This document shows positions 461 through 19,771 of a stretch of 20,250 nucleotides of DNA, in pieces. Below the pieces are notes generated by a model. That model worked only from the letters and a program-made list of their open reading frames with translations, did not search any database and was not told the DNA's origin. The translations under genes were made by a program, and so were the position numbers. Numbering within the stretch: the stretch's first letter is position 1; every line of letters starts with the position of its first letter. The stretch is from a virus. The stretch covers positions 1 through 20,250 of IMG/VR virus record IMGVR_UViG_3300034190_000779; one strand, given 5' to 3'.

Positions 461-623
461 ACCAAATAAATTAAATGTTCCATATACTACTTATAATTTA
501 GTTATACCTATAAAAATGAAAGAGCAGTTATCTAAAATTGCTCATGATAGAAGTGTTATAGAAAATCAACAAATATCTATAGCCGATATAATTAGGGAAA
601 GTGTTAATGAACGATTTAGCTAG
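453..623 (+). CDS. Small ribbon-helix-helix (Arc/CopG-like) DNA-binding protein
   Basis: A 56-aa frame from ATG 453 to TAG 621-623 that fills the apparent gap before the terminase gene. It overlaps the nuclease gene by 8 nt and the terminase start (607) by 17 nt. The protein has a ribbon-helix-helix layout: a short strand T-Y-N-L-V-I-P at about 13-19, helix A (K-M-K-E-Q-L-S-K-I-A), a loop, then S-I-A-D-I-I-R-E-S-V-N as helix B. It lines up well by eye with phage P22 Arc (strand F-N-L-R-W-P, then S-V-N-S-E-I). RHH proteins bind operator DNA as dimers through the paired strands. The role could be repressing the packaging operon or recognising a packaging site as a small-terminase substitute; the sequence does not decide between these. 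The family call rests on pattern alone. Confidence 0.65.
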   Translation: MPRPNKLNVPYTTYNLVIPIKMKEQLSKIAHDRSVIENQQISIADIIRESVNERFS

Positions 624-2019
624 AGCAGTAGAAATTGCTAAAGAATTGCAATATCGTCAAGAAACAAATCAAATGGAATTGTATAAACCATATGACTATC
701 AGATAAAGTTTCATAACAGTAATGCAACGCAACGATTGTTAATGGCAGGTAATAGGGTAGGTAAATCGTTTTGTGGTGCTATGGAAATGGCATATCATTG
801 TACAGGGTTATATCCAGAGTGGTGGAAAGGTCGTAGGTTTGATAGACCTGTAAGATGTTGGGCAGGTGGGGTATCTAATGAAACAACACGAGATGTATGT
901 CAAAAAGAATTAGTAGGGCAACCAGATGATCCTAGTGCTAGAGGTAAGGGAAGTATTCCGTTAAAACTTATTGGAGATACTGTACGAAAAGCAGGTGTAC
1001 CTAATGCAATGAATAGTTTAGTTATAAAACATAAAAACGGAGGGTACAGTAGAATAGGTTTTAAAGCGTATGAGATGGGTAAAGAAAAATGGATGGGTGA
1101 GTCATTAGATGTTATCTGGTTAGATGAAGAACCGCCACAAGCTATATACTCACAAGCATTAACTCGTACTGCTGATAAAGGTGGTATTGTATATATGACA
1201 TTTACTCCAGAGCAAGGTATGACAGAAACAGTTGCACAGTTTGTAAATAATTTAAAAGATAGCCAAGACCTTATACAGGCAACGTGGGATGATGCTCCAC
1301 ATATGACTAAAGAAGTACGAGATCAAATTTTACAGGCATTACCACCGCATGAAAGAAAAATGCGTGAAAAAGGAATACCACAATTAGGATCTGGTCTAGT
1401 ATTTCCTGTAGCTGAAGAAGATATTGTATGTGATCCATTTGATATACCAGACTATTATCCACGAATATGCGGAATAGATTTTGGTTGGGATCACCCAACA
1501 GCGTGTGCATGGTTAGCATGGGATAGAGATAGTGATATAGTATATGTGTATGATAGTTATAGTATGCGACAAGAAACTGTACCTGTTCATGCATCTGCAA
1601 TAAAATCAAGAAACAGATGGATTCCTGTTATATACCCTATGGATGGTAGGCAAGCAGATAAAGGTAGTGGTAAAAGTTTAGCTATGCAATATAGAGAAGA
1701 AGGTGTTAATTTATTAAAAGAACATTTTACAAATCCACCGCAACAAGGAATGAAAGAAGGTAGTGGGGGTATAAGTGTTGAAGCAGGGGTAATGGAAATG
1801 TTAACAAGATTTCAAACAAAAAGGTTGAAAATTTTTGCAAATCAGAATAAACTTATGGAAGAAATTAGAATGTATCATAGAAAGGAAGGTAAAATTATTC
1901 CTATGAATGATGATGTTATTTCTGCAATGCGATATGCAGTAATGTCATTACGAAAAGCTAGGGTTAAAAATACCGAACCAATCCAGATAGAATCTGATTC
2001 TGAATTTAATCTTTTTTAA
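607..2019 (+). CDS. terL: Terminase large subunit (packaging ATPase/nuclease)
   Basis: A 470-aa protein of normal length for TerL, the motor that pumps DNA through the portal and cuts the concatemer. ATG 607 is chosen because AGGGA at 594-598 is correctly spaced from it; the in-frame GTG at 601 would be only 2 nt away. The ATPase half shows Walker A G-N-R-V-G-K-S (48-54), Walker B V-I-W-L-D-E-E (169-175) and coupling motif T-F-T-P-E-Q-G (198-204). The nuclease half shows RNase H-type acidic positions: Asp291 in G-I-D-F-G-W-D-H-P, Asp346/Asp351 in the M-D-G-R-Q-A-D segment, and Asp435-Asp436 in N-D-D-V-I-S-A near the C-terminus. No conventional small terminase is visible in the window. Confidence 0.95.
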   Translation: MNDLARAVEIAKELQYRQETNQMELYKPYDYQIKFHNSNATQRLLMAGNRVGKSFCGAMEMAYHCTGLYPEWWKGRRFDRPVRCWAGGVSNETTRDVCQKELVGQPDDPSARGKGSIPLKLIGDTVRKAGVPNAMNSLVIKHKNGGYSRIGFKAYEMGKEKWMGESLDVIWLDEEPPQAIYSQALTRTADKGGIVYMTFTPEQGMTETVAQFVNNLKDSQDLIQATWDDAPHMTKEVRDQILQALPPHERKMREKGIPQLGSGLVFPVAEEDIVCDPFDIPDYYPRICGIDFGWDHPTACAWLAWDRDSDIVYVYDSYSMRQETVPVHASAIKSRNRWIPVIYPMDGRQADKGSGKSLAMQYREEGVNLLKEHFTNPPQQGMKEGSGGISVEAGVMEMLTRFQTKRLKIFANQNKLMEEIRMYHRKEGKIIPMNDDVISAMRYAVMSLRKARVKNTEPIQIESDSEFNLF

Positions 2020-2028
2020 GGAGATACT

Positions 2029-2091
2029 ATGTATAAAACTAAATCTAAAATGATGAAAAAAATGAAAAAAAAAGGAAAGGGTAAAAAATAA
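2029..2091 (+). CDS. 20-aa lysine-rich microprotein (first of three)
   Basis: ATG 2029 follows a strong AAGGAG (2018-2023) that overlaps the terminase stop, and the TAA at 2089-2091 shares one base with the next ATG. The product is almost entirely Lys, Met, Gly and Ser/Thr, with 10 Lys in 20 residues and a K-K-K-G-K-G-K-K end. I do not recognise a family. The good ribosome binding site and the seamless relay into two further microgenes argue for real translation. It could bind nucleic acid by charge, or be a translational leader whose purine-rich codons supply the ribosome site of the next gene. A 9-A run (2065-2073) lies inside it. Confidence 0.5.
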   Translation: MYKTKSKMMKKMKKKGKGKK

Positions 2092-2165
2092 TGCCACAAG
2101 GAAAAGGAACATATGGAAAAAAAATTGGTAGACCACCAATGAAAAAGAAAAAAGGGAAAAAATAA
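2091..2165 (+). CDS. 24-aa basic microprotein, GKGTYG/GRPP type
   Basis: Starts in a TAATG overlap at 2091 and ends in another TAATG at 2163-2167. The purine-rich 3' end of the preceding gene (GGAAAGGG at 2074-2081) acts as its ribosome binding site. The peptide begins M-P-Q-G-K-G-T-Y-G, then K-K-I-G-R-P-P, then a run of lysines. G-R-P-P flanked by basic residues resembles an AT-hook core (G-R-P), which binds the minor groove of AT-rich DNA. From memory, short peptides beginning P-x-G-K-G-T-Y-G are annotated as hypothetical proteins in other marine phage structural modules; this was not checked here. Confidence 0.6.
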   Translation: MPQGKGTYGKKIGRPPMKKKKGKK

Positions 2166-2299
2166 TGGCAAAAGGACTTTATGCTAATATTAATCGTAGA
2201 AAAAAATTAGGTATATCACGACCTAAATCTAAATCTACAATAACAAAGAAAGCATATGCTAATATGAAAGCAGGTTTTCCTAAAAAAAAGAAAGGGTAA
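2165..2299 (+). CDS. 44-aa basic microprotein, KGLYANI type
   Basis: Starts at ATG 2165, overlapping the preceding stop by one base; AAAGGG (2154-2159) in the previous gene provides the ribosome site. The peptide opens M-A-K-G-L-Y-A-N-I-N, has a basic middle (R-R-K-K-L-G-I-S-R-P-K-S-K-S), then repeats a related motif, A-Y-A-N-M-K-A-G-F, and ends P-K-K-K-K-G. Two Y-A-N-[IM] motifs in 44 residues suggest an internal duplication. Peptides beginning K-G-L-Y-A-N-I occur, as I recall, in many phage head-gene clusters without known function. It could be a minor head-internal or DNA-associated peptide, but that is inference from charge and position. Confidence 0.65.
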   Translation: MAKGLYANINRRKKLGISRPKSKSTITKKAYANMKAGFPKKKKG

Positions 2300-2302
2300 G
2301 TT

Positions 2303-2506
2303 ATGGGATTTTTTTCTGCACCTAAGAGGCGTGCACCAGCCCCACCACCACCACCACCTCCTCCAAAGCAAGAAGATCCTAAAAAATCTGCTGCTAAAGA
2401 GAGAAGAAAAGCAGGTAAAGTGAGAGGTATGGGATATGGTCAAGGTAGTACACTTGGTGGCACTGACGAAAGTGCAAGTATAGCAAGAACTATTCTTGGG
2501 CAATGA
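2303..2506 (+). CDS. Small proline-rich virion-module protein with C-terminal TxLG motif
   Basis: A 67-aa protein from ATG 2303, with AAAGGG (2290-2295) upstream. It starts M-G-F-F-S-A-P-K-R-R-A-P-A and then has eight consecutive prolines (residues 14-21), a charged linker and a glycine-rich end, S-T-L-G-G...A-R-T-I-L-G-Q. The layout (short hydrophobic start, polyproline, basic linker, S/T-x-L-x-G-G, terminal T-x-L-G) matches small podophage proteins of unknown function found between terminase and portal. The 74-aa product at 3163-3387 has the same tail plan. Eight prolines in a row normally stall ribosomes without elongation factor P. The stop overlaps the next start as ATGA. Confidence 0.75.
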   Translation: MGFFSAPKRRAPAPPPPPPPPKQEDPKKSAAKERRKAGKVRGMGYGQGSTLGGTDESASIARTILGQ

Positions 2507-2928: not shown

Positions 2929-3161
2929 TGGGAGGTAATGCAAATGCCAGACAAAAAGGTATGGAATCATTAGCAAGTGGTGGTAAATTTGGCAAAACTA
3001 AAACACCACCTACTGTACAAGAAAAAAAACCAGAACCAGATAGAGAGCAAGTTGGTATGACAGCGCAACGAAAAAAAACAGAACAAACTAAAAAACAACA
3101 AAAAGCATCATTAACAGGCACTTCACTTGAAGATGGTGGTAAAACAGTATTAGGAGGATAA
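2928..3161 (+). CDS. Small charged protein of the head module with TVLGG tail
   Basis: A 77-aa protein. ATG 2928 forms a TAATG overlap with the GNAT-like gene; an in-frame ATG at 2913 inside that gene is a less likely start. The sequence opens M-G-G-N-A-N-A-R-Q-K-G-M-E-S-L-A, is then rich in Lys, Gln, Glu and Pro with no predicted fold, and ends S-L-E-D-G-G-K-T-V-L-G-G. I do not recognise a family. The terminal K-T-V-L-G-G resembles the ends of its two neighbours. The last two codons (GGA GGA) form the strong ribosome site for the next gene, so this tail may be partly constrained by that job. Confidence 0.65.
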   Translation: MGGNANARQKGMESLASGGKFGKTKTPPTVQEKKPEPDREQVGMTAQRKKTEQTKKQQKASLTGTSLEDGGKTVLGG

Positions 3162-3162
3162 T

Positions 3163-3387
3163 ATGGGCGGAGGAATGGGAAAATCAGCACCACAAATGCC
3201 ACCACCAATGACAGATGTAACAGATAAAACTGCAGAAGAAGAAGCAAAATTAGCTGCGGAAAAACAAAGAATGTTAGATACTAAAAAAAAAGGACAGTAT
3301 GCAACAATATTAACATCTGGTGAAGGTTTAGATGAACCTGTAGAAACACAAAAAACTACATTGGGTGGTCAAACTACAATAACATAA
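3163..3387 (+). CDS. Small virion-module protein, ATILTxxxGL...TTLGG type
   Basis: A 74-aa protein from ATG 3163 with AGGAGG at 3152-3157, the clearest ribosome site in this cluster. It has a glycine start (M-G-G-G-M-G-K-S), a short proline patch (M-P-P-P-M), an acidic/basic helix (about 21-42), then K-K-G-Q-Y-A-T-I-L-T-S-G-E-G-L and a tail K-T-T-L-G-G-Q. Proteins with a T-I-L-T-x-x-x-G-L step followed by K-T-x-L-G are, as I recall, common just upstream of podophage portals and have no established function. It appears to be a relative of the 67-aa proline-rich protein at 2303-2506. The stop is one base from the portal start. Confidence 0.75.
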   Translation: MGGGMGKSAPQMPPPMTDVTDKTAEEEAKLAAEKQRMLDTKKKGQYATILTSGEGLDEPVETQKTTLGGQTTIT

Positions 3388-11208: not shown

Positions 11209-13001
11209 TGAGATTACCAAGATATGAACGACAAGGACAAGGGTTAGGAAGAGCATCACGCTCTTTAACTGCAGGTGTACAAACATCAAGTTTAGGTGGG
11301 CAGGTATCAAAAGGCATATCTGATGTAGCTAATAAATTTTTAGAATATCAAGCAAAAATGCAAGTAGCTGAAAGAGATGCAAAAGTAAAATTAAAAACAG
11401 CAGAAGCAAGTAGTCAAATTACAAATAAATTATTAGAATTTCAAGATCCAAGAAATCCTAATTATTTAAATCCAAGTTCTTGGGAAAATGATTATGATAC
11501 TTATGCAGAAAAAATACAAGAACAATATAAAACAGAATTTGGAGATGATTATAAATATATTGCACCATCTTTAATAAACAAGTTAACAGAAGGTAGAATT
11601 AAAACAAAAGAAACTGTATTTAATCAAATATTAAAAAATCAAAAAAATGCTTTTGAAACAGAAAGATCAACATATATAGATGGTATTAATAGTTATACAA
11701 AACCTCAAGAATTTATTACAAATTATGAAATACATAAAAACAGTATGGAATCGTATAGAAAAAATGGATTGTATGGAGATAAAGAATTTGAAGAGCAAAT
11801 AAGAAAAGATAAATATTTTACAAATTATAAATATTTAGAAAATGAAGCTATTGCAAGTGCAACAGTTGTAAGTCCTACAGGTCAAAATAATATAGATTGG
11901 AGTTCTGCATTACAAAGATTAAAAGACACTAAAAATAAATTTTATGATATTGAAGGTAACGAATTAACTGTAGATGATGAATTAAGGCAAAAATTAATTA
12001 AAGATGTAGGGGAAAAATCAAAAACACAAAAGGCATTATTTACAGATGAATTAGGTTTGCAGCAAATAAATAATATAAAATCTGTTCGTAAAGATTTAAT
12101 AGAAATACAAAATAAAACACCTTATGGTATGGAAAAACAAAAAACTTTTTTAGATGAATTAGCAAATGGTGGATATGGTAAATTATCTGATACTCAATTA
12201 AAAGGAGCGGCTTCGTTATTTAGAACAATAATAAAAGAAGATACAGATAGATCGGAAACTCCAGAAGGTATTTTAGCAAATACAATTTTATCAGTTTTTG
12301 TAAATAGTGGAATAATAGATACAGTTGCAGAACAACAAATTATACATGAAGCAGCAAAAGATGGATTGTTAAAATTAGAAAGATATGACAAATTAAACAA
12401 AAAATCAGAAAGTAATATGAAAGTAATAGCAAAAGAAAATTCTGTATATTACAAACGAGCAATGGGAATGGTAGCTAAAGAGTTAGGGCAAAAAGACCCA
12501 ACATCTATTTTTAAAAATTTAGGTCCAGATGCAACTATGGATTCTATATTAGAAGCATTCGATCAAAATTATGACCAAGAAACATTTATGGCGGTAGCTT
12601 ATATAGATGACATTTTAGAATATGGTGAAAGAAAAGGTATAACTATTAAAGAAATGTTAACACCAAAAACTACAATGAATCCAAATGGAATGATTGAAGA
12701 TCTGGTAAAATATGTAAAAGGTATAAAACAAGAAAATGTTGCTAAACAAACATTTAATAATTTTCAATTACCTACTAATTTTAAATTAGAAGATGCATAT
12801 TATTTTTCTGCAGATAATTGGTTTAAAGGAAAAAAACCAACACTACCACAAATGCCGCCTAAAAAACCAGATGAGAAATTAACAGATTATATATTAAGAA
12901 TAAAAGGTCAACTTCCTACAGATGGTTTATCTATTAATAGAGGTATTAATACAATAGATAGTTTAGACACAAATCAATTTATTTTGCCAATATTAGAATG
13001 A
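11208..13001 (+). CDS. Internal virion protein B (T7 gp15-like ejection protein)
   Basis: A 597-aa, largely helical and charged protein whose place between the gp14-like and gp16-like genes marks it as the gp15 counterpart, which forms the periplasmic part of the ejection channel. The N-terminus carries R-Y-E-R-Q-G-Q-G-L-G-R-A-S-R-S-L, then a probable coiled coil at about 43-80 (F-L-E-Y-Q-A-K-M-Q-V-A-E-R-D-A). W-E-N-D-Y-D-T-Y-A-E-K-I (about 93-104) is followed by helix after helix to the C-terminus. There is no signal peptide or enzyme motif. It overlaps the flanking genes by 1 nt and 4 nt, and neither start has a strong ribosome site, so translation is probably coupled. Sequence similarity alone would not name it. 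Confidence 0.75.
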   Translation: MRLPRYERQGQGLGRASRSLTAGVQTSSLGGQVSKGISDVANKFLEYQAKMQVAERDAKVKLKTAEASSQITNKLLEFQDPRNPNYLNPSSWENDYDTYAEKIQEQYKTEFGDDYKYIAPSLINKLTEGRIKTKETVFNQILKNQKNAFETERSTYIDGINSYTKPQEFITNYEIHKNSMESYRKNGLYGDKEFEEQIRKDKYFTNYKYLENEAIASATVVSPTGQNNIDWSSALQRLKDTKNKFYDIEGNELTVDDELRQKLIKDVGEKSKTQKALFTDELGLQQINNIKSVRKDLIEIQNKTPYGMEKQKTFLDELANGGYGKLSDTQLKGAASLFRTIIKEDTDRSETPEGILANTILSVFVNSGIIDTVAEQQIIHEAAKDGLLKLERYDKLNKKSESNMKVIAKENSVYYKRAMGMVAKELGQKDPTSIFKNLGPDATMDSILEAFDQNYDQETFMAVAYIDDILEYGERKGITIKEMLTPKTTMNPNGMIEDLVKYVKGIKQENVAKQTFNNFQLPTNFKLEDAYYFSADNWFKGKKPTLPQMPPKKPDEKLTDYILRIKGQLPTDGLSINRGINTIDSLDTNQFILPILE

Positions 13002-16000
13002 AAATTACAGCATTAGAATTAAGTCAAGCAGGATTTAGAGAAGATACTATCTTAGAAATGATAGAGAAACAAAGACCTGCATTAAAAAAAGCAGGTTTTA
13101 GTGATGTTGAAATTAATGAAGCATATAATATACAACCAACAAGTTCATCTTTATTAACAGACGATATTGTTGATGAAGATCCTCAAAAATATACACCACC
13201 AACAACAGACCCATATGAAAACAATATTAAACAAGAGTTACAACAAAAAGATCCAGAAAATATAAATCAAGAAGCAATTAACAATGAATATGAATTTAAT
13301 GGAGAAAAATTTAAAAATTGGAGAGAGTTAGATAACGATACACGAACTGCAATGGAAAAAGAATTTGCAGATGTGTTACAAGAACTTAAAACAGAAAATG
13401 AAATGCCAGAAAACAAAGAAGTTGAATTAATGGCAACGGCATTAAAAGAAGATAAACCAGACATAGAATTTCATAAAAAAACTTTGCGTTCTGGAATAAA
13501 AAAAAGACGAGAAGAAAATCAACAACGATTATTAAATAAAAAACAAAGAGAATTAGAAGAAGGAATTAAACCATTTGAAATGTTAAATCCATATTTAACA
13601 ACAGGAAAAAACTCAAGAAGGATGAAAGATATATATAAAGATTATTATAAATTTCAACCTTATCAAATGCAAAATATAGAAAATTATTTAAGTATGAAAG
13701 CGGTATTAGAATCAGATAATAGGAATATACATTCAAGCGATCCTAATACTACAGCAGCAGGGTTATGGCAATTTACGGAAGGCACAACAGTAACAGCAAT
13801 TACTAATTATTTTTATACACGAAAACTATATGACAGAAGTTATGTAAATGAAAAATGGGCAGAAGAAGCATTAGAACATAGAGATATGACTAATCTTGAA
13901 CCAGACCAACAAAAAGCATTGTTGTTAGCTCATATGTTTCAACAAGAAGGAAGTGATGAGTTAATAAGAGGTATAGCAAATGGTGATGTTGGTGCTATGA
14001 AAGAATATTATTTAAAATTTCATCATACGCAACCTAATGAAAAATTAAAAGAAAGAGTAGATTATGTTTTTTCATATTGGAATAATAGAGCAGGTCCAAC
14101 TAAATATGTAAATCCTAAAATGGCAACACTTCCTGTAGATACAAGTAAATTTGCTAAAACAGATATAGGAAAAGCAATTACTAAACCTTTGGCATATGCA
14201 ATGGGAGGTATGGGTAATAAAAATGCATTTACTACAGGATATGAGCAATCAGTACATGGAATGTTACAAAAATATGTAAATTTTGTATATGACAATCCAG
14301 ATATGACTAAACAAGAGCGTGTAGATTATTTTAAAGATATGATTATGTATAATGAAAATCAAACATTTGGAGATGAATTAGTTAAAAGTATATCACAAAT
14401 GATTAATGATTTACCTTATATGATTGGAGGGGGTGTAGCATTTCCTGCATTTTTAAATACTATTAGTGGAGGTGTAGCTGCTCCATTAACACCTATGACT
14501 TCAATGGTAGGTGCATTTATGTTACCAGAAATGTTAAGATATCCTCTTGTAGAAGGTATGTTAGATCAAAAACACAATAATTTTGAAGAATATATAAAAA
14601 ATTTTGTATCTATTGAAAATGGTAAAATAGCATTAAAAATGGGTGCAATAGGTGCGGCAACAAGTTTTGGTGGTCATTTAGTAAAAAATATAGCTTCAAG
14701 AAAATTAGGATTTGGAAAAAAATCTACAACAACAGCTAGGTTGTTAGCAGAAACAGGTATAATGACAGAATTAGGATTTGCATTAAATGGTGAAGTCCCT
14801 ACATTTAAAGACTTTGCACATACTGCAATATTGTTATTTGGTTTTCATGCTACACAAACACAAGTAACAAATTTAATTAATATATATAAAAAATATGGCA
14901 GACATCCGTTTGACGTTAAAAATGAAGCGGAACAAAGTGGTACATACAAAGAAACATTAAGAAAATCAGAAATACCAGAATTTTATGAAACAGCACAAGA
15001 AATGGCAGGAAGGAAAGCTGAAAATGTTACAAATAAAAAATTATTACCTGTAGCAGAATTTCAAATAAATGAAATTGTTAACACAACAGTATCTGGTAGA
15101 GATAAAGCAATGATTCTTAATAAAGAAATTATTAATGATGATTCTGTATTTATTGTTCAAGACAACAGGGGAAACACATTTTCTGTATTAGAATCGCAAG
15201 TAAGAAAAATGGATCCGCAAAAAAATATGGAAGCGGAAATAGTTGATGGAAAAATAAATATAAAAGATAAAAAAATACCAGAAGATGCGGAAGCACAAGG
15301 TGTAACAGGCATAAAAGGATCGTTTACTAAAAGACAAGAAAAAGGTGAATTTAATAAAGAGTTACAGCCAATAGAAATAACTAACGATAAAAGTGTAGTT
15401 ATTAAAGGTGAAACTCCAAAAACAAATATACAAAATATACAAAATTTAAAAAAACAAGATAAAGGGCAATTTAGGTATGTAATATCAAACGATAAAAAAA
15501 TAGTTACAGATGGTGCTATGATAGCAACGACAAAATATTATCCACAATTAACTAAAAAAATACAAACATATAAAAAATTAAATAACGACAAACAAGCAAC
15601 ATTAAATGGAATTGCAAAACAAAATTCAAAAGATATATATGAAAAAGCATTTCCTAAAGAATTTAGAAAACAAGGGTTTGATAAACTAATACCAATTCTT
15701 GCAAAAAAACAGGAATTAAGCAATGATCTTGTTTTAAGAAACAAAGCAACAAAAGAATATATACAAATAGATAAAACTCGTTTTGATATTTTACAAACAT
15801 TTAAAAATGCAGAGGGTAAAATACAAAAAGCTGAAATAGGTTATTCTAATAACAGAGTTGTATTTATTAATCCTAATAATAAAGAAATTATAGGAGTATT
15901 AGCAGATAAAAAAATAGATAAAACATCAAAAGAATATAATCAATATAATAAATATTACGAAGAATATTCAGAAAATTTTAATCAAGGAACATCATATTAT

Positions 16001-19000
16001 AGTAAAAGCACACGAGATTCAAATCATGCAGGAATACCTAATGAACCATATACACCAAGAGATTTCACAGCAAGAAATAGAGATACATGGAAAGAAATAT
16101 ATGATAGCGGAACATCATTAAATTCATATGATTTAATAACATTAACACAAGCATTATTAGGTGCGGCACCCAAATTAAAAAAAATGAAAAAGGGACATTT
16201 GGGTGTGTTTAGGCATTTAAAAGATCAAGATTTAACTAAACCTTTATCTAAACAAGCTGAAGTTATTGTAAACAGAGAAATACAAAATAATCCAGAAGAA
16301 TTTTTAAAAACTTTAGCACATGAAATAGGGCATTTAATTGATTTTGTACCTACAAGATCTATGGCAAAAGGTAATATACTTGGTCGTTTTAAAGGAATGA
16401 GAACGTATATGAAAGATTGGATAGATGGGAAAAATGATGGTGCTAAACCAATGAGCGTTGCAGAAAAAAAAGAAATGATGAAAGAAGCTGAAAGAATAGC
16501 TGAAGAAAATAAAGGTCAAACAAATGCAGAAATAAAAGAACTTAATGTAACACCAGAAACAATTTTAGATATTGTAAGAGATCCTAATATACGAAACAAA
16601 ATAGATCCAGAGTTATATAAAACATTTGCACAACTATCAGATGTTGCAAAAAAAGAAGTCATGAAAGATGCTATGAAAGGATTAACAAGTCCTCATCTTA
16701 AAGAGATAGTAGATAAAATAAACAACAAAGATGTAACAAAAGGTTTAAGTCCAGAAGCTGCAGAAGTATTTAAAGAAATGTTTGAAGCAGAAATGATTAA
16801 AAGAAATATTGTTCGTAAAGAGGAAATAGTTGCAGAATTAAAAGAACTAACAATGAAATGGCATCCGTATGATAGAACAACAGCTAAACCAGATTATATT
16901 AAATATAGAGATTCTGCACCAGAATTAATGGCAGAGTTTCAAATGGCATTTTTATTAAGACCACAATGGACAAAATTAAATGCACCTAAGACATATGAAT
17001 TATGGTCATATTATATGAAAAATAGACTTGAAGTAAAAGATTTATGGGAATCAATACAAAATGAATTAAACAATCCTCCAAATATAAGAGAAGCAAAATT
17101 AGCATCAGAAATAAAAGAAATGTATAGAGGTGGAGAAAAAAAGACTAGAGAAAATATTAAAGAAATTGGTAAGCAAGATAAACAAAGAGAGTATGACGAT
17201 TTAGGTACAGAAATGATAGATACTTTCTGGTGGTTGCAAACACGATTAAAAATGGATAATCAAAGAGGTAATAGTCCGTTAGCAAAAGATTTAAAGTTTT
17301 CAATAGAAAATTATAGATATAGGCACGCTGAAGTGTCTTTGTATAAAAGACAAATGTATGAAAAAATATTACATCCATTAGAAAGTATTGGGTATAATAA
17401 ACATGATTTAGGTTTAATGTTGTTATATAAAAATCTAGCACATAGTAAACAAAGAGAAGGAAAGATTACTTGGAAGTTATATAAAATAGAACCACAATTA
17501 TTACAAAAATTAAAAAATGAAACTGATTTTGTTGGGTTGTATGAAAATTATGCACAAGCACATCCACAATTATCTCAAATAGCAGACAAGTTTTTTGAAC
17601 TAAGACAAACAGAAGTAGTGCAAAGATTGCAAGAATCTAAAATGTTAAATGCACAACAAAAAGCAGAATTAGCAGAAAATGTATTTTATATAACTTACAG
17701 ACCTATTGAAAAATTAATACAAAGACACGTTAAATCTGGCATAAGTTCTTGGGGTTCAAAGTATATGAAAAAAACGCAAGGAACTTTTGAAGAAATAATG
17801 AATCCATTAGATATGACAATACTTAATGATATGCAATTATTATCTGAAATAAAAAGACAAGAATTGTATAGTTTGACTATAAAGTTTTTAAACGAAAATA
17901 AAAAATCAATAGAAACATATGGTAAAAATGTAAAACAACCTATTAATGTTATTAACAAACCTAAAATGATAGGTAAAGGAAAGATAGATCCAAACATTCC
18001 TACAGGATTAAAAAGAGTTACATTTATGGAAAATGGTGAAATTAAAACTTTTGACATTCCTAAAACAATAGCAGAAGCAATGGAAGGAAATCCTGTTGCA
18101 ACTTGGAGAAGTCTTAAATATGCAAGTAAAGTAAATTCATTATTTAGAGGAATATTTACAGAACATAATCCGTTGTTCTGGGTGGTAAATTGGGGTTTTA
18201 GAGATGTGCGTAGATCAATGATTACATTACCTAATGGCAAAACATTTAAAAGTCCGCTTACAAGAGGGCAATATATCAAAGAAGTATATAAAAATTTAAA
18301 ACCTGCATTAAAAAGTGTTTATGGAACAGGAACAGAATTAACAAGACATATGGAAAAAAATGGATTTTTTATAGGATTAGAAGAAGGGTATAGGGGAGAT
18401 GCAGGAATGGCTCGGTCAAGACTTGAAATGGATGAAGATAGTTTTGCATTAAAAAGATTTATAGATGAACAATATATACAAAAAGGAAAATTTGGAAAAT
18501 TATATGATGCAACAATGGGTAAATATTTAATGCATTCTGGAAATATAGCACGAGCATTAGAAAGAAGTCATAAAATTGCAGGTTATAAAGTATTAAAAGA
18601 TCAAGTTGCTAAAGGTGAATTAGATCTAACAGATAAAGAAATGATGTATATTGTACAAACGCAAATAGGATCTCCAAGTTTTTTAAGAACAGGTAAAGCA
18701 AACCCTGTATTAAATACTGCTTTTTTATTTTACAATGCAAATAAAGAAGGATATAGAGGAGATTACGAAGCGTTTAAAAATGATCCTGCAGGAGTAGGTG
18801 GTAGATTTGCTGCATATAGTGCTGCTCCAGAAATTTTAAAATTTTTAATAAGCATGGGTTTATTAGGATCTGGTATGCAAGCATATATGAATGCTATTCC
18901 AGATCACGATAAACATAATTTTAATATAATTCCTACAGGTATGCTTACACAAGATGGTAGACCTATTTATATAAGAATACCTATGGATTTTACTTCTCAA

Positions 19001-19771
19001 TTAATATCATCTTTAACTAACATGAGTTTAGAAACTGCTTTTGGTATGCAATCTGCAAAAAATACAGGTGAAAAAATAAAAATGTTTTGGAAAGGATTTG
19101 ATTCTGGCTCGCCTTTTCAAGTAACTCCTATTGCACCTGCGGTATTAGATACATTAAATTTAATATTTGGAGAAGATGCAAAAAATTATTTTGGAGGTCC
19201 TTTAATAGATGAGGATATTATGAAACTAGATATAGATGATTTACAGTATAAAAAACTAAAAGAACTAATGAAATATAATTGGAACACATATGGACCAAAT
19301 TGGATATATAAATTTCAAAGTAATGATAAAGCTGAAATATTAAAACAATATGAAAAAATGACAGGAATACCTTTATTAGATCCTTTAATAAATAAATTTG
19401 TAAAAGTTGGTCCTAATCCTATTTTAGATACAGCAAGAGAATATAATAAATTAGAAAACGATAGGGAAAATTTAATGATCGTAGCAAGAAAAGATGCTCT
19501 AAAAAAAATATTGCAGGGTAAGATTAATTTAACCCAAGATGAATTAAATTCTTTAGGTATGATGAAACAAGATATTGTAGAAAATACAGAGTTTATTAGA
19601 CAATTAGGTCAGTTTGTGGGAGCAGATGAATTGTTAATAGAATATGTTGTAGGTGATAGAAAGCAAAGAATAAATATTTTGAGATCTATGCATAAATATC
19701 GTACACAAATGCCAAGGTTTTATGAAAAATGGGAAGAAGCACGAAAAGGATTGTCTAAATTAGTAAAATAA
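12998..19771 (+). CDS. Giant internal virion protein: lytic transglycosylase, metallopeptidase motif and LPD38-like region (gp16-like)
   Basis: A 2257-aa ejection protein, much longer than T7 gp16 (about 1300 aa). A short helical repeat (A-G-F-x-x-x-x-I, residues 11-39) opens it. A lytic transglycosylase domain follows at about 225-365 with catalytic Glu238 in V-L-E-S-D-N-R and A-G-L-W-Q-F (254-259); it should open peptidoglycan during DNA entry. Hydrophobic segments lie near 471-522 and 601-615. H-E-I-G-H (1108-1112) marks a zinc metallopeptidase; E1313 in A-E-F-Q-M-A-F-L-L-R-P is a candidate third ligand, 200 residues on. The region from N-P-L-F-W-V-V-N-W-G-F-R-D (about 1725) through N-T-A-F-L-F-Y-N-A-N (about 1905) resembles LPD38 of polyvalent proteins. 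It starts in an ATGA overlap. Domain limits are by eye. Confidence 0.88.
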   Translation: MKITALELSQAGFREDTILEMIEKQRPALKKAGFSDVEINEAYNIQPTSSSLLTDDIVDEDPQKYTPPTTDPYENNIKQELQQKDPENINQEAINNEYEFNGEKFKNWRELDNDTRTAMEKEFADVLQELKTENEMPENKEVELMATALKEDKPDIEFHKKTLRSGIKKRREENQQRLLNKKQRELEEGIKPFEMLNPYLTTGKNSRRMKDIYKDYYKFQPYQMQNIENYLSMKAVLESDNRNIHSSDPNTTAAGLWQFTEGTTVTAITNYFYTRKLYDRSYVNEKWAEEALEHRDMTNLEPDQQKALLLAHMFQQEGSDELIRGIANGDVGAMKEYYLKFHHTQPNEKLKERVDYVFSYWNNRAGPTKYVNPKMATLPVDTSKFAKTDIGKAITKPLAYAMGGMGNKNAFTTGYEQSVHGMLQKYVNFVYDNPDMTKQERVDYFKDMIMYNENQTFGDELVKSISQMINDLPYMIGGGVAFPAFLNTISGGVAAPLTPMTSMVGAFMLPEMLRYPLVEGMLDQKHNNFEEYIKNFVSIENGKIALKMGAIGAATSFGGHLVKNIASRKLGFGKKSTTTARLLAETGIMTELGFALNGEVPTFKDFAHTAILLFGFHATQTQVTNLINIYKKYGRHPFDVKNEAEQSGTYKETLRKSEIPEFYETAQEMAGRKAENVTNKKLLPVAEFQINEIVNTTVSGRDKAMILNKEIINDDSVFIVQDNRGNTFSVLESQVRKMDPQKNMEAEIVDGKINIKDKKIPEDAEAQGVTGIKGSFTKRQEKGEFNKELQPIEITNDKSVVIKGETPKTNIQNIQNLKKQDKGQFRYVISNDKKIVTDGAMIATTKYYPQLTKKIQTYKKLNNDKQATLNGIAKQNSKDIYEKAFPKEFRKQGFDKLIPILAKKQELSNDLVLRNKATKEYIQIDKTRFDILQTFKNAEGKIQKAEIGYSNNRVVFINPNNKEIIGVLADKKIDKTSKEYNQYNKYYEEYSENFNQGTSYYSKSTRDSNHAGIPNEPYTPRDFTARNRDTWKEIYDSGTSLNSYDLITLTQALLGAAPKLKKMKKGHLGVFRHLKDQDLTKPLSKQAEVIVNREIQNNPEEFLKTLAHEIGHLIDFVPTRSMAKGNILGRFKGMRTYMKDWIDGKNDGAKPMSVAEKKEMMKEAERIAEENKGQTNAEIKELNVTPETILDIVRDPNIRNKIDPELYKTFAQLSDVAKKEVMKDAMKGLTSPHLKEIVDKINNKDVTKGLSPEAAEVFKEMFEAEMIKRNIVRKEEIVAELKELTMKWHPYDRTTAKPDYIKYRDSAPELMAEFQMAFLLRPQWTKLNAPKTYELWSYYMKNRLEVKDLWESIQNELNNPPNIREAKLASEIKEMYRGGEKKTRENIKEIGKQDKQREYDDLGTEMIDTFWWLQTRLKMDNQRGNSPLAKDLKFSIENYRYRHAEVSLYKRQMYEKILHPLESIGYNKHDLGLMLLYKNLAHSKQREGKITWKLYKIEPQLLQKLKNETDFVGLYENYAQAHPQLSQIADKFFELRQTEVVQRLQESKMLNAQQKAELAENVFYITYRPIEKLIQRHVKSGISSWGSKYMKKTQGTFEEIMNPLDMTILNDMQLLSEIKRQELYSLTIKFLNENKKSIETYGKNVKQPINVINKPKMIGKGKIDPNIPTGLKRVTFMENGEIKTFDIPKTIAEAMEGNPVATWRSLKYASKVNSLFRGIFTEHNPLFWVVNWGFRDVRRSMITLPNGKTFKSPLTRGQYIKEVYKNLKPALKSVYGTGTELTRHMEKNGFFIGLEEGYRGDAGMARSRLEMDEDSFALKRFIDEQYIQKGKFGKLYDATMGKYLMHSGNIARALERSHKIAGYKVLKDQVAKGELDLTDKEMMYIVQTQIGSPSFLRTGKANPVLNTAFLFYNANKEGYRGDYEAFKNDPAGVGGRFAAYSAAPEILKFLISMGLLGSGMQAYMNAIPDHDKHNFNIIPTGMLTQDGRPIYIRIPMDFTSQLISSLTNMSLETAFGMQSAKNTGEKIKMFWKGFDSGSPFQVTPIAPAVLDTLNLIFGEDAKNYFGGPLIDEDIMKLDIDDLQYKKLKELMKYNWNTYGPNWIYKFQSNDKAEILKQYEKMTGIPLLDPLINKFVKVGPNPILDTAREYNKLENDRENLMIVARKDALKKILQGKINLTQDELNSLGMMKQDIVENTEFIRQLGQFVGADELLIEYVVGDRKQRINILRSMHKYRTQMPRFYEKWEEARKGLSKLVK

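Follow-up and report, generated by a model that had tools for sequence, protein, structure and literature searches.

Three short, closely linked genes downstream of the terminase large-subunit gene (TerL) of a marine podophage are best explained, with a probability of about 0.6, as genes for genuine small proteins drawn from a reshuffled pool of lysine-rich modules. Their basic tails would be selected as protein, the Shine-Dalgarno (SD) sequence of the following gene would be written into those tails by codon choice, and the proteins are likely to bind nucleic acid in the head or during packaging.

The locus and its gene map

The whole stretch of DNA that was analysed, hereafter the window, is a 20.25-kb podophage contig. 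The window phage is marine and of SAR11 type, its closest isolate being Pelagibacter phage EXVC032P Baldr, with a TerL 79% identical. The features of the locus are listed below.

601..2019, + strand: TerL (terminase large subunit), with Terminase_6N and Terminase_6C matches; upstream flank of the island
2018..2023, + strand: ribosome site of g1, AAGGAG, read from the sequence; overlaps the TerL stop codon (2017-2019)
2029..2091, + strand: g1, 20 aa, MYKTKSKMMKKMKKKGKGKK, module A; predicted from ORF, homologues and selection
2076..2081, + strand: AAAGGG in the g1 tail codons, putative g2 ribosome site; ends 9 nt before the g2 ATG
2089..2093, + strand: TAATG overlap of g1 and g2, from ORF coordinates
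2091..2165, + strand: g2, 24 aa, MPQGKGTYGKKIGRPPMKKKKGKK, module B family, MP[QMY]GKGTYGxxxGRP plus basic tail; predicted from homologues and selection
2151..2156, + strand: AAAGGG in the g2 tail codons, putative g3 ribosome site; ends 8 nt before the g3 ATG
2163..2167, + strand: TAATG overlap of g2 and g3, from ORF coordinates
2165..2299, + strand: g3, 44 aa, MAKGLYANINRRKKLGISRPKSKSTITKKAYANMKAGFPKKKKG, GLYANIN...GFPKKKKG, module C family, phrog_25774; predicted from profile match and selection
2291..2296, + strand: AAAGGG in the g3 tail codons, putative ribosome site of the next gene; ends 6 nt before the ATG at 2303
2303..2506, + strand: proline-rich small protein; downstream border of the microgene island, upstream of portal

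The original prediction described a relay of three microgenes of 20, 24 and 44 codons, joined by TAATG overlaps and ending in lysine-rich tails whose codons supply the next SD sequence. The coordinates bear out the lengths, the tails and two overlaps, the last joint being TAA-gtt-ATG with no overlap (next ATG at 2303), and AAAGGG is indeed present in all three tails, 6-9 nt before the next ATG. Lysine/glycine-rich C-terminal tails are common to g1, g2 and g3, for which the predicted pI is 10.7, 10.9 and 11.4, respectively. It should be noted that, of the 18 pairs of neighbouring genes in the window, 12 are separated by 2 nt or less; genes that overlap or almost touch are thus frequent in this phage, and the TAATG overlap is nothing special to the microgene locus. 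An Rfam search of the window for RNA elements gave no match, no terminator-like site was found, and promoter-like sites were at chance level. The antisense ORFs over the locus (1948-2139 and 2216-2503) are complements of K-rich coding.

Elsewhere in the window, the small proteins at 2303-2506, 2931-3161 and 3163-3387, around the acetyltransferase gene, have TILG/TLGG-type C-terminal motifs in common and recur in most TerL relatives. They may be one repeated family, the last of them matching phrog_831 (1e-7). At the end of the structural operon, a single 2257-aa ORF (12998-19771) probably encodes a giant internal virion protein.

Evidence that g1, g2 and g3 are genes

Purifying selection on codons, to which the original prediction had tied its case, is found in all three genes (pN/pS <1) and likewise in module D. 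The ratio is 0.22 for g3 (summed over 13 unique sequences; <1 in 77 of 78 pairs), 0.375 for g2 (first 15 codons after the start, 12 unique sequences; <1 in 64 of 66 pairs) and 0.04 for g1, the last from three unique sequences only, whose pairwise differences add up to 13 synonymous and 3 nonsynonymous ones. The g1 family is rare; its peptide is the same in the related loci L208, L210 and L211 and carries one substitution in L212. When the region was simulated 20,000 times with a first-order Markov model, which is weaker evidence than the homologues, a three-ORF chain of this kind never appeared and a two-ORF chain did so 57 times. Selection and simulation together rule out chance ORFs in A-rich DNA. 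On this sequence evidence, g1, g2 and g3 are regarded as real genes for tiny, strongly basic proteins that are presumably translated.

The basic tail and the ribosome site within it

Two origins of the tail had been proposed originally, a protein feature or a by-product of the translation relay, to be separated through homologues that lack a downstream partner. Homologues were sorted by whether a start codon overlaps their stop, lies near it, or is absent. Unclustered, the mean number of K+R in the last ten residues was 5.90 (n=73), 5.52 (n=27) and 6.39 (n=18), respectively, for g2 homologues, and 5.45 (n=42), 4.95 (n=44) and 5.25 (n=12) for g3 homologues. After clustering of the tails, g2 homologues had 5.79 of 10 when coupled (n=67) and 5.76 of 10 when uncoupled (n=17, p=0.85), and g3 homologues 5.39 of 10 (n=33) versus 4.08 of 10 (n=12). 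The lower basicity of uncoupled g3-family ends arises mostly from C-terminal extensions or the GLYANIH subfamily; in GFP-containing g3 members, 3.4 of the four residues after GFP are basic when coupled and 3.2 when uncoupled (p=0.57). Basic tails are thus kept where the downstream partner is missing. Furthermore, tails stay K/R-rich in phages with a GC content of 0.45 or more, so AT-rich composition is ruled out as the source of the lysines. Since coupling to a downstream gene makes no difference to the basicity of g2 tails, the first of the two proposed origins stands; the ribosome site is real, but the relay does not account for the tail. The basic tail appears, then, to be selected as protein, with the ribosome site overlaid on it.

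The opposite reading, in which the peptides are incidental and the tails owe their existence to the AAA/GGA/GGG codons that build the next ribosome site, could draw on the SD-like AAAGGG of all three window tails and on a codon choice in coupled tails that favours SD pairing. It is nevertheless very improbable, given that the N-terminal parts are under purifying selection, that g2 tails are no less basic without a downstream start, that about 40% of coupled tails have no GG within their last 24 nt, and that the tail of phage P-SCSP1u before TAATG reads aagaaaaagaaaaag.

The contribution of codon choice was analysed by swapping tail codons for synonymous ones according to the contig's own usage and comparing the energy of anti-SD pairing, with a generic anti-SD, usage taken from each contig's longest ORF, and contigs that are related to each other. 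Coupled tails paired at -2.89 kcal/mol as observed versus -2.21 kcal/mol when shuffled (n=145, p=3e-6), and at -2.90 versus -2.24 kcal/mol after clustering (n=117, p=0.002). The excess disappeared when the scored stretch was shifted 15 or 27 nt upstream, and it was absent from uncoupled tails (clustered, n=29, p=0.45). Its restriction to coupled tails and to the right distance indicates that the ribosome signal is a real second layer. In the window's own tails, scored on the identical locus L210, codon choice was not extreme (rank 0.3-0.5); GG is already supplied there by glycine codons, and the SD sequence is not optimised beyond what the amino acids themselves contribute. The anatomy of the TAATG joints suggests translational coupling.

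The g2 family

No match to g2 was obtained in Pfam (E up to 1), PHROG or NCBIfam. A 20-nt degenerate pattern for QGKGTYG, which imposes neither a Met-Pro start nor GRP, found at least 120 stretches in IMG/VR, and among the matches listed the ORF was shorter than 60 aa in 94. Of the 88 unique ORFs in those listed matches, 87 begin with Met-Pro and 85 contain GRP, and beyond the GRP core follows a variable tail that is 40% K+R. A consensus search added 30 isolate phage records (Prochlorococcus, Pelagibacter, Roseobacter and Synechococcus phages), in many of which no gene is annotated at the match. As had been anticipated for genes of this length, homologues were missed in annotation, for example in P-SCSP1u, CRP-171 and SS120-1. 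The closest large neighbours of g2 homologues often encode a portal or head-tail adaptor, a major head protein or a terminase, and these families account for at least 19 of 37 upstream neighbours (non-overlapping family counts). The strict pattern, which demands Q at position 3, had no match in 84,980 bacterial and archaeal genomes, and no mention of the GKGTYG motif was found in the phage literature searched. The g2 family is a large marine-phage family that lacks a Pfam, PHROG or NCBIfam model.

The g3 family

Almost the entire phrog_25774 profile (positions 3-41 of 42) is covered by the match to g3 (E 4e-23). The position of family members varies: they follow TerL in the window, precede portal in Baldr and MEP301, lie between the scaffold and capsid genes of HTVC119P and S35-C6, and precede TerL in Syn5 (gp59). 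AlphaFold predicted two short helices in g3 (residues 5-15 and 28-36; pLDDT 84, pTM 0.36), and Foldseek gave no meaningful match to this model. In HTVC010P, no gene is annotated at L005:3456-3596, where a fusion of modules A and C loses its reading frame in the C part beyond GTSRSKK; that part is a candidate broken g3 copy.

Stand-alone relatives of g3, of the form NSLVNNINARKKKGTSRPKSKKTVxKKSYxKMxxDW, were also seen in genomes of Dyadobacter, Pedobacter, Fimbriiglobus and Flavihumibacter (L315:3001-3123, L320:3001-3105, L322:3001-3114, L316:3001-3123 and L318:3001-3102). Matches occur in about 1% of the sampled Bacteroidota and Planctomycetota genomes, usually as a single copy, and in the two inspected closely, Dyadobacter arcticus and Pedobacter, they are flanked by what look like ordinary cellular genes. 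The tails of these bacterial relatives differ from GFPKKKK, and their presence on bacterial chromosomes implies that the role of g3 is in general not head-specific. The g3 search also matched 30 Escherichia records; the tail-trimmed consensus (E up to 1e-3) lists none, so these matches are probably due to chance.

A cassette island downstream of TerL

Loci were surveyed with TerL as the anchor. Among the 25 with a TerL at least 85% identical, 13 gene arrangements were found, three of the loci being followed only to the second gene. The modules of the island are A (MYKTKSK), B (GKGTYG/GRP), Bp (KQKTLPxxLxxKI), C (GLYANIN), D (VIxxLKKASKxHxxQA), E (KQKKIA..ITGADF), F (KHYFRNGKEHKG), G (YPSAYANMYA, phrog_27331) and H (WVxExWVDIGAP, phrog_23735, with a weak match to DUF5872 below the cut-off), together with a 163-aa protein. 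Fused forms are also observed, the unique ones being B+Bp (10), A+C (8), B+J (2) and A+Bp (1, HTVC119P); a short motif, the KTKSGK N-terminus, is suggestive of module A in the A+C fusion. The island appears to be built from about ten basic modules, separate or fused and mostly unannotated, which are swapped, deleted and fused among related phages. The chain of three microgenes described originally is real, and the wider cassette island and the module fusions extend beyond it. At locus L208, DNA identity to the window is 99.1% in TerL and 97.0% in portal, and 75% in g2, 84% in g3 and 81% in the acetyltransferase gene. In most relatives at a greater distance (TerL 78-82%), the island is missing, another small gene is present or g3 precedes portal. 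At loci L212 and L213, the 163-aa protein (MAVALKKELTK...), possibly an acyltransferase, stands in place of g2 and g3, directly after module A or B and behind TerL.

Locus L209 carries a deletion whose ends lie in A-tracts of the g2 and g3 tails; the two tails are thereby joined, g3 is lost in frame and the remnant MPQGKGTYGKKIGRPPMKKKKKKG precedes the same downstream start. No second g3 copy was found in its 31.9-kb record; L209 is a single metagenomic contig, and an assembly error is therefore possible. That this junction sits in the A-tracts of both tails, and that arrangements shift fast while TerL is about 99% identical, would fit a tail DNA selected as a recombination joint, whose A-rich repeats permit frame-safe exchange or deletion of cassettes and whose peptide is secondary. 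This explanation is improbable: the tail remains K/R in phages with a GC content of at least 0.45, the peptide cores are conserved, and the L209 deletion is the single clear one found. The tails may nonetheless have a role in recombination. A broader proposal combines these layers into a modular peptide kit, in which the lysine-rich segment serves as a three-way joint (protein tail or linker, ribosome site and recombination point) and modules shift between separate and fused states while keeping frame and translation; we put it forward only tentatively.

Proposed mechanism and function

In the preferred reading, a marine podophage clade would keep and reshuffle lysine-rich peptide modules (A, B, Bp, C, D, E, F, G, H and others) in the island between the terminase gene and the proline-rich gene upstream of portal. 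Each module would be carried either as its own ORF, through a stop/start overlap, or fused with another in one ORF, where the lysine-rich stretch becomes a linker. The ribosome site of the next ORF would be fitted into the tail by synonymous codon choice, giving translational coupling. The products would be late proteins that bind nucleic acid in head assembly or packaging, or that are carried inside the head. Such a late head or packaging role is likely, judging from the GRP motif, the charge of the proteins and the head genes found nearby, and DNA binding inside the head is plausible. The modules had no Pfam or NCBIfam match to known nucleoid or histone-like families, and neither a solved structure nor a fold match was found for them.

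The main functional rival, on account of fast module turnover, is a host-directed role, with host ribosomes, RNA or the nucleoid, and not the head, as the place where the basic modules act. Module content turns over fast between near-identical phages, as fits host-directed genes, and g3 relatives are present in bacterial chromosomes; placement in the structural operon beside TerL, portal and capsid genes in many phage types speaks against it, and we consider this role unlikely. Small capsid decoration or cement proteins are far less probable still. Head genes do adjoin the modules, but P-SCSP1u has a block of B, DUF6321 and C' (GLYANIH) genes with TAATG joints between its capsid and tail tubular genes, and its high-resolution capsid structure was reported with no decoration protein (PMC10575957). 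Ordered capsid decoration by the B, DUF6321 and GLYANIH proteins is hence unlikely in P-SCSP1u, the structure being that of P-SCSP1u and not of the window phage. In this cyanophage, the unannotated MPYGKGTYGSKVGRPPKKKKKKK gene (L292:2501-2990) lies between the major capsid gene and the DUF6321 and GLYANIH genes, with TAATG joints and no GG in its lysine tail.

Abundant marine phages that infect SAR11, Prochlorococcus, Synechococcus and roseobacters carry microgenes of the module families, frequently without annotation beside capsid and terminase genes. The near-invariance of 15 residues (MPxGKGTYGxxxGRP) in a family that Pfam, PHROGs and NCBIfam all lack suggests that a component of head assembly or genome packaging has been overlooked. 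The tails would also provide a clean case of overlapping selection, the protein being fixed first and the ribosome site being placed in synonymous positions only where a downstream gene follows.

Comparison with known systems

The g3 protein resembles phrog_25774, of unknown function (e.g. Syn5 gp59), over nearly the full profile length; members of that family elsewhere lie before TerL, before portal or with scaffold and capsid genes, whereas g3 of the window belongs to a linked series after TerL. AT-hook peptides combine a GRP core with basic flanks, and g2 homologues likewise have GRP (85 of 88) and a K-rich C-terminal flank. However, RGRP occurs in only 12 of the 88, the N-terminal GKGTYG is foreign to AT-hooks, and g2 has no Pfam AT-hook match (E up to 1). 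The sequences do not support membership of g2 among AT-hooks, and the AT-hook-like reading of its GRPP motif is not upheld, although GRP is conserved.

DUF6321 (PF19846) and DUF5872 (PF19197) are other small basic marine-phage proteins that accompany the same modules, DUF6321 in P-SCSP1u and DUF5872 only weakly in module H. Both differ in sequence from g1-g3, and neither is present in the window. In the literature searched, no mention of DUF6321 was found, and DUF5872 is mentioned only in an algal-virus genome paper.

Translational coupling through stop/start overlap occurs in phage operons. The window locus likewise has TAATG, with an SD sequence inside the preceding gene at a functional distance. 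It differs in that the codons holding the SD sequence also encode a conserved basic tail, and in that the joint alternates with in-frame fusion in relatives.
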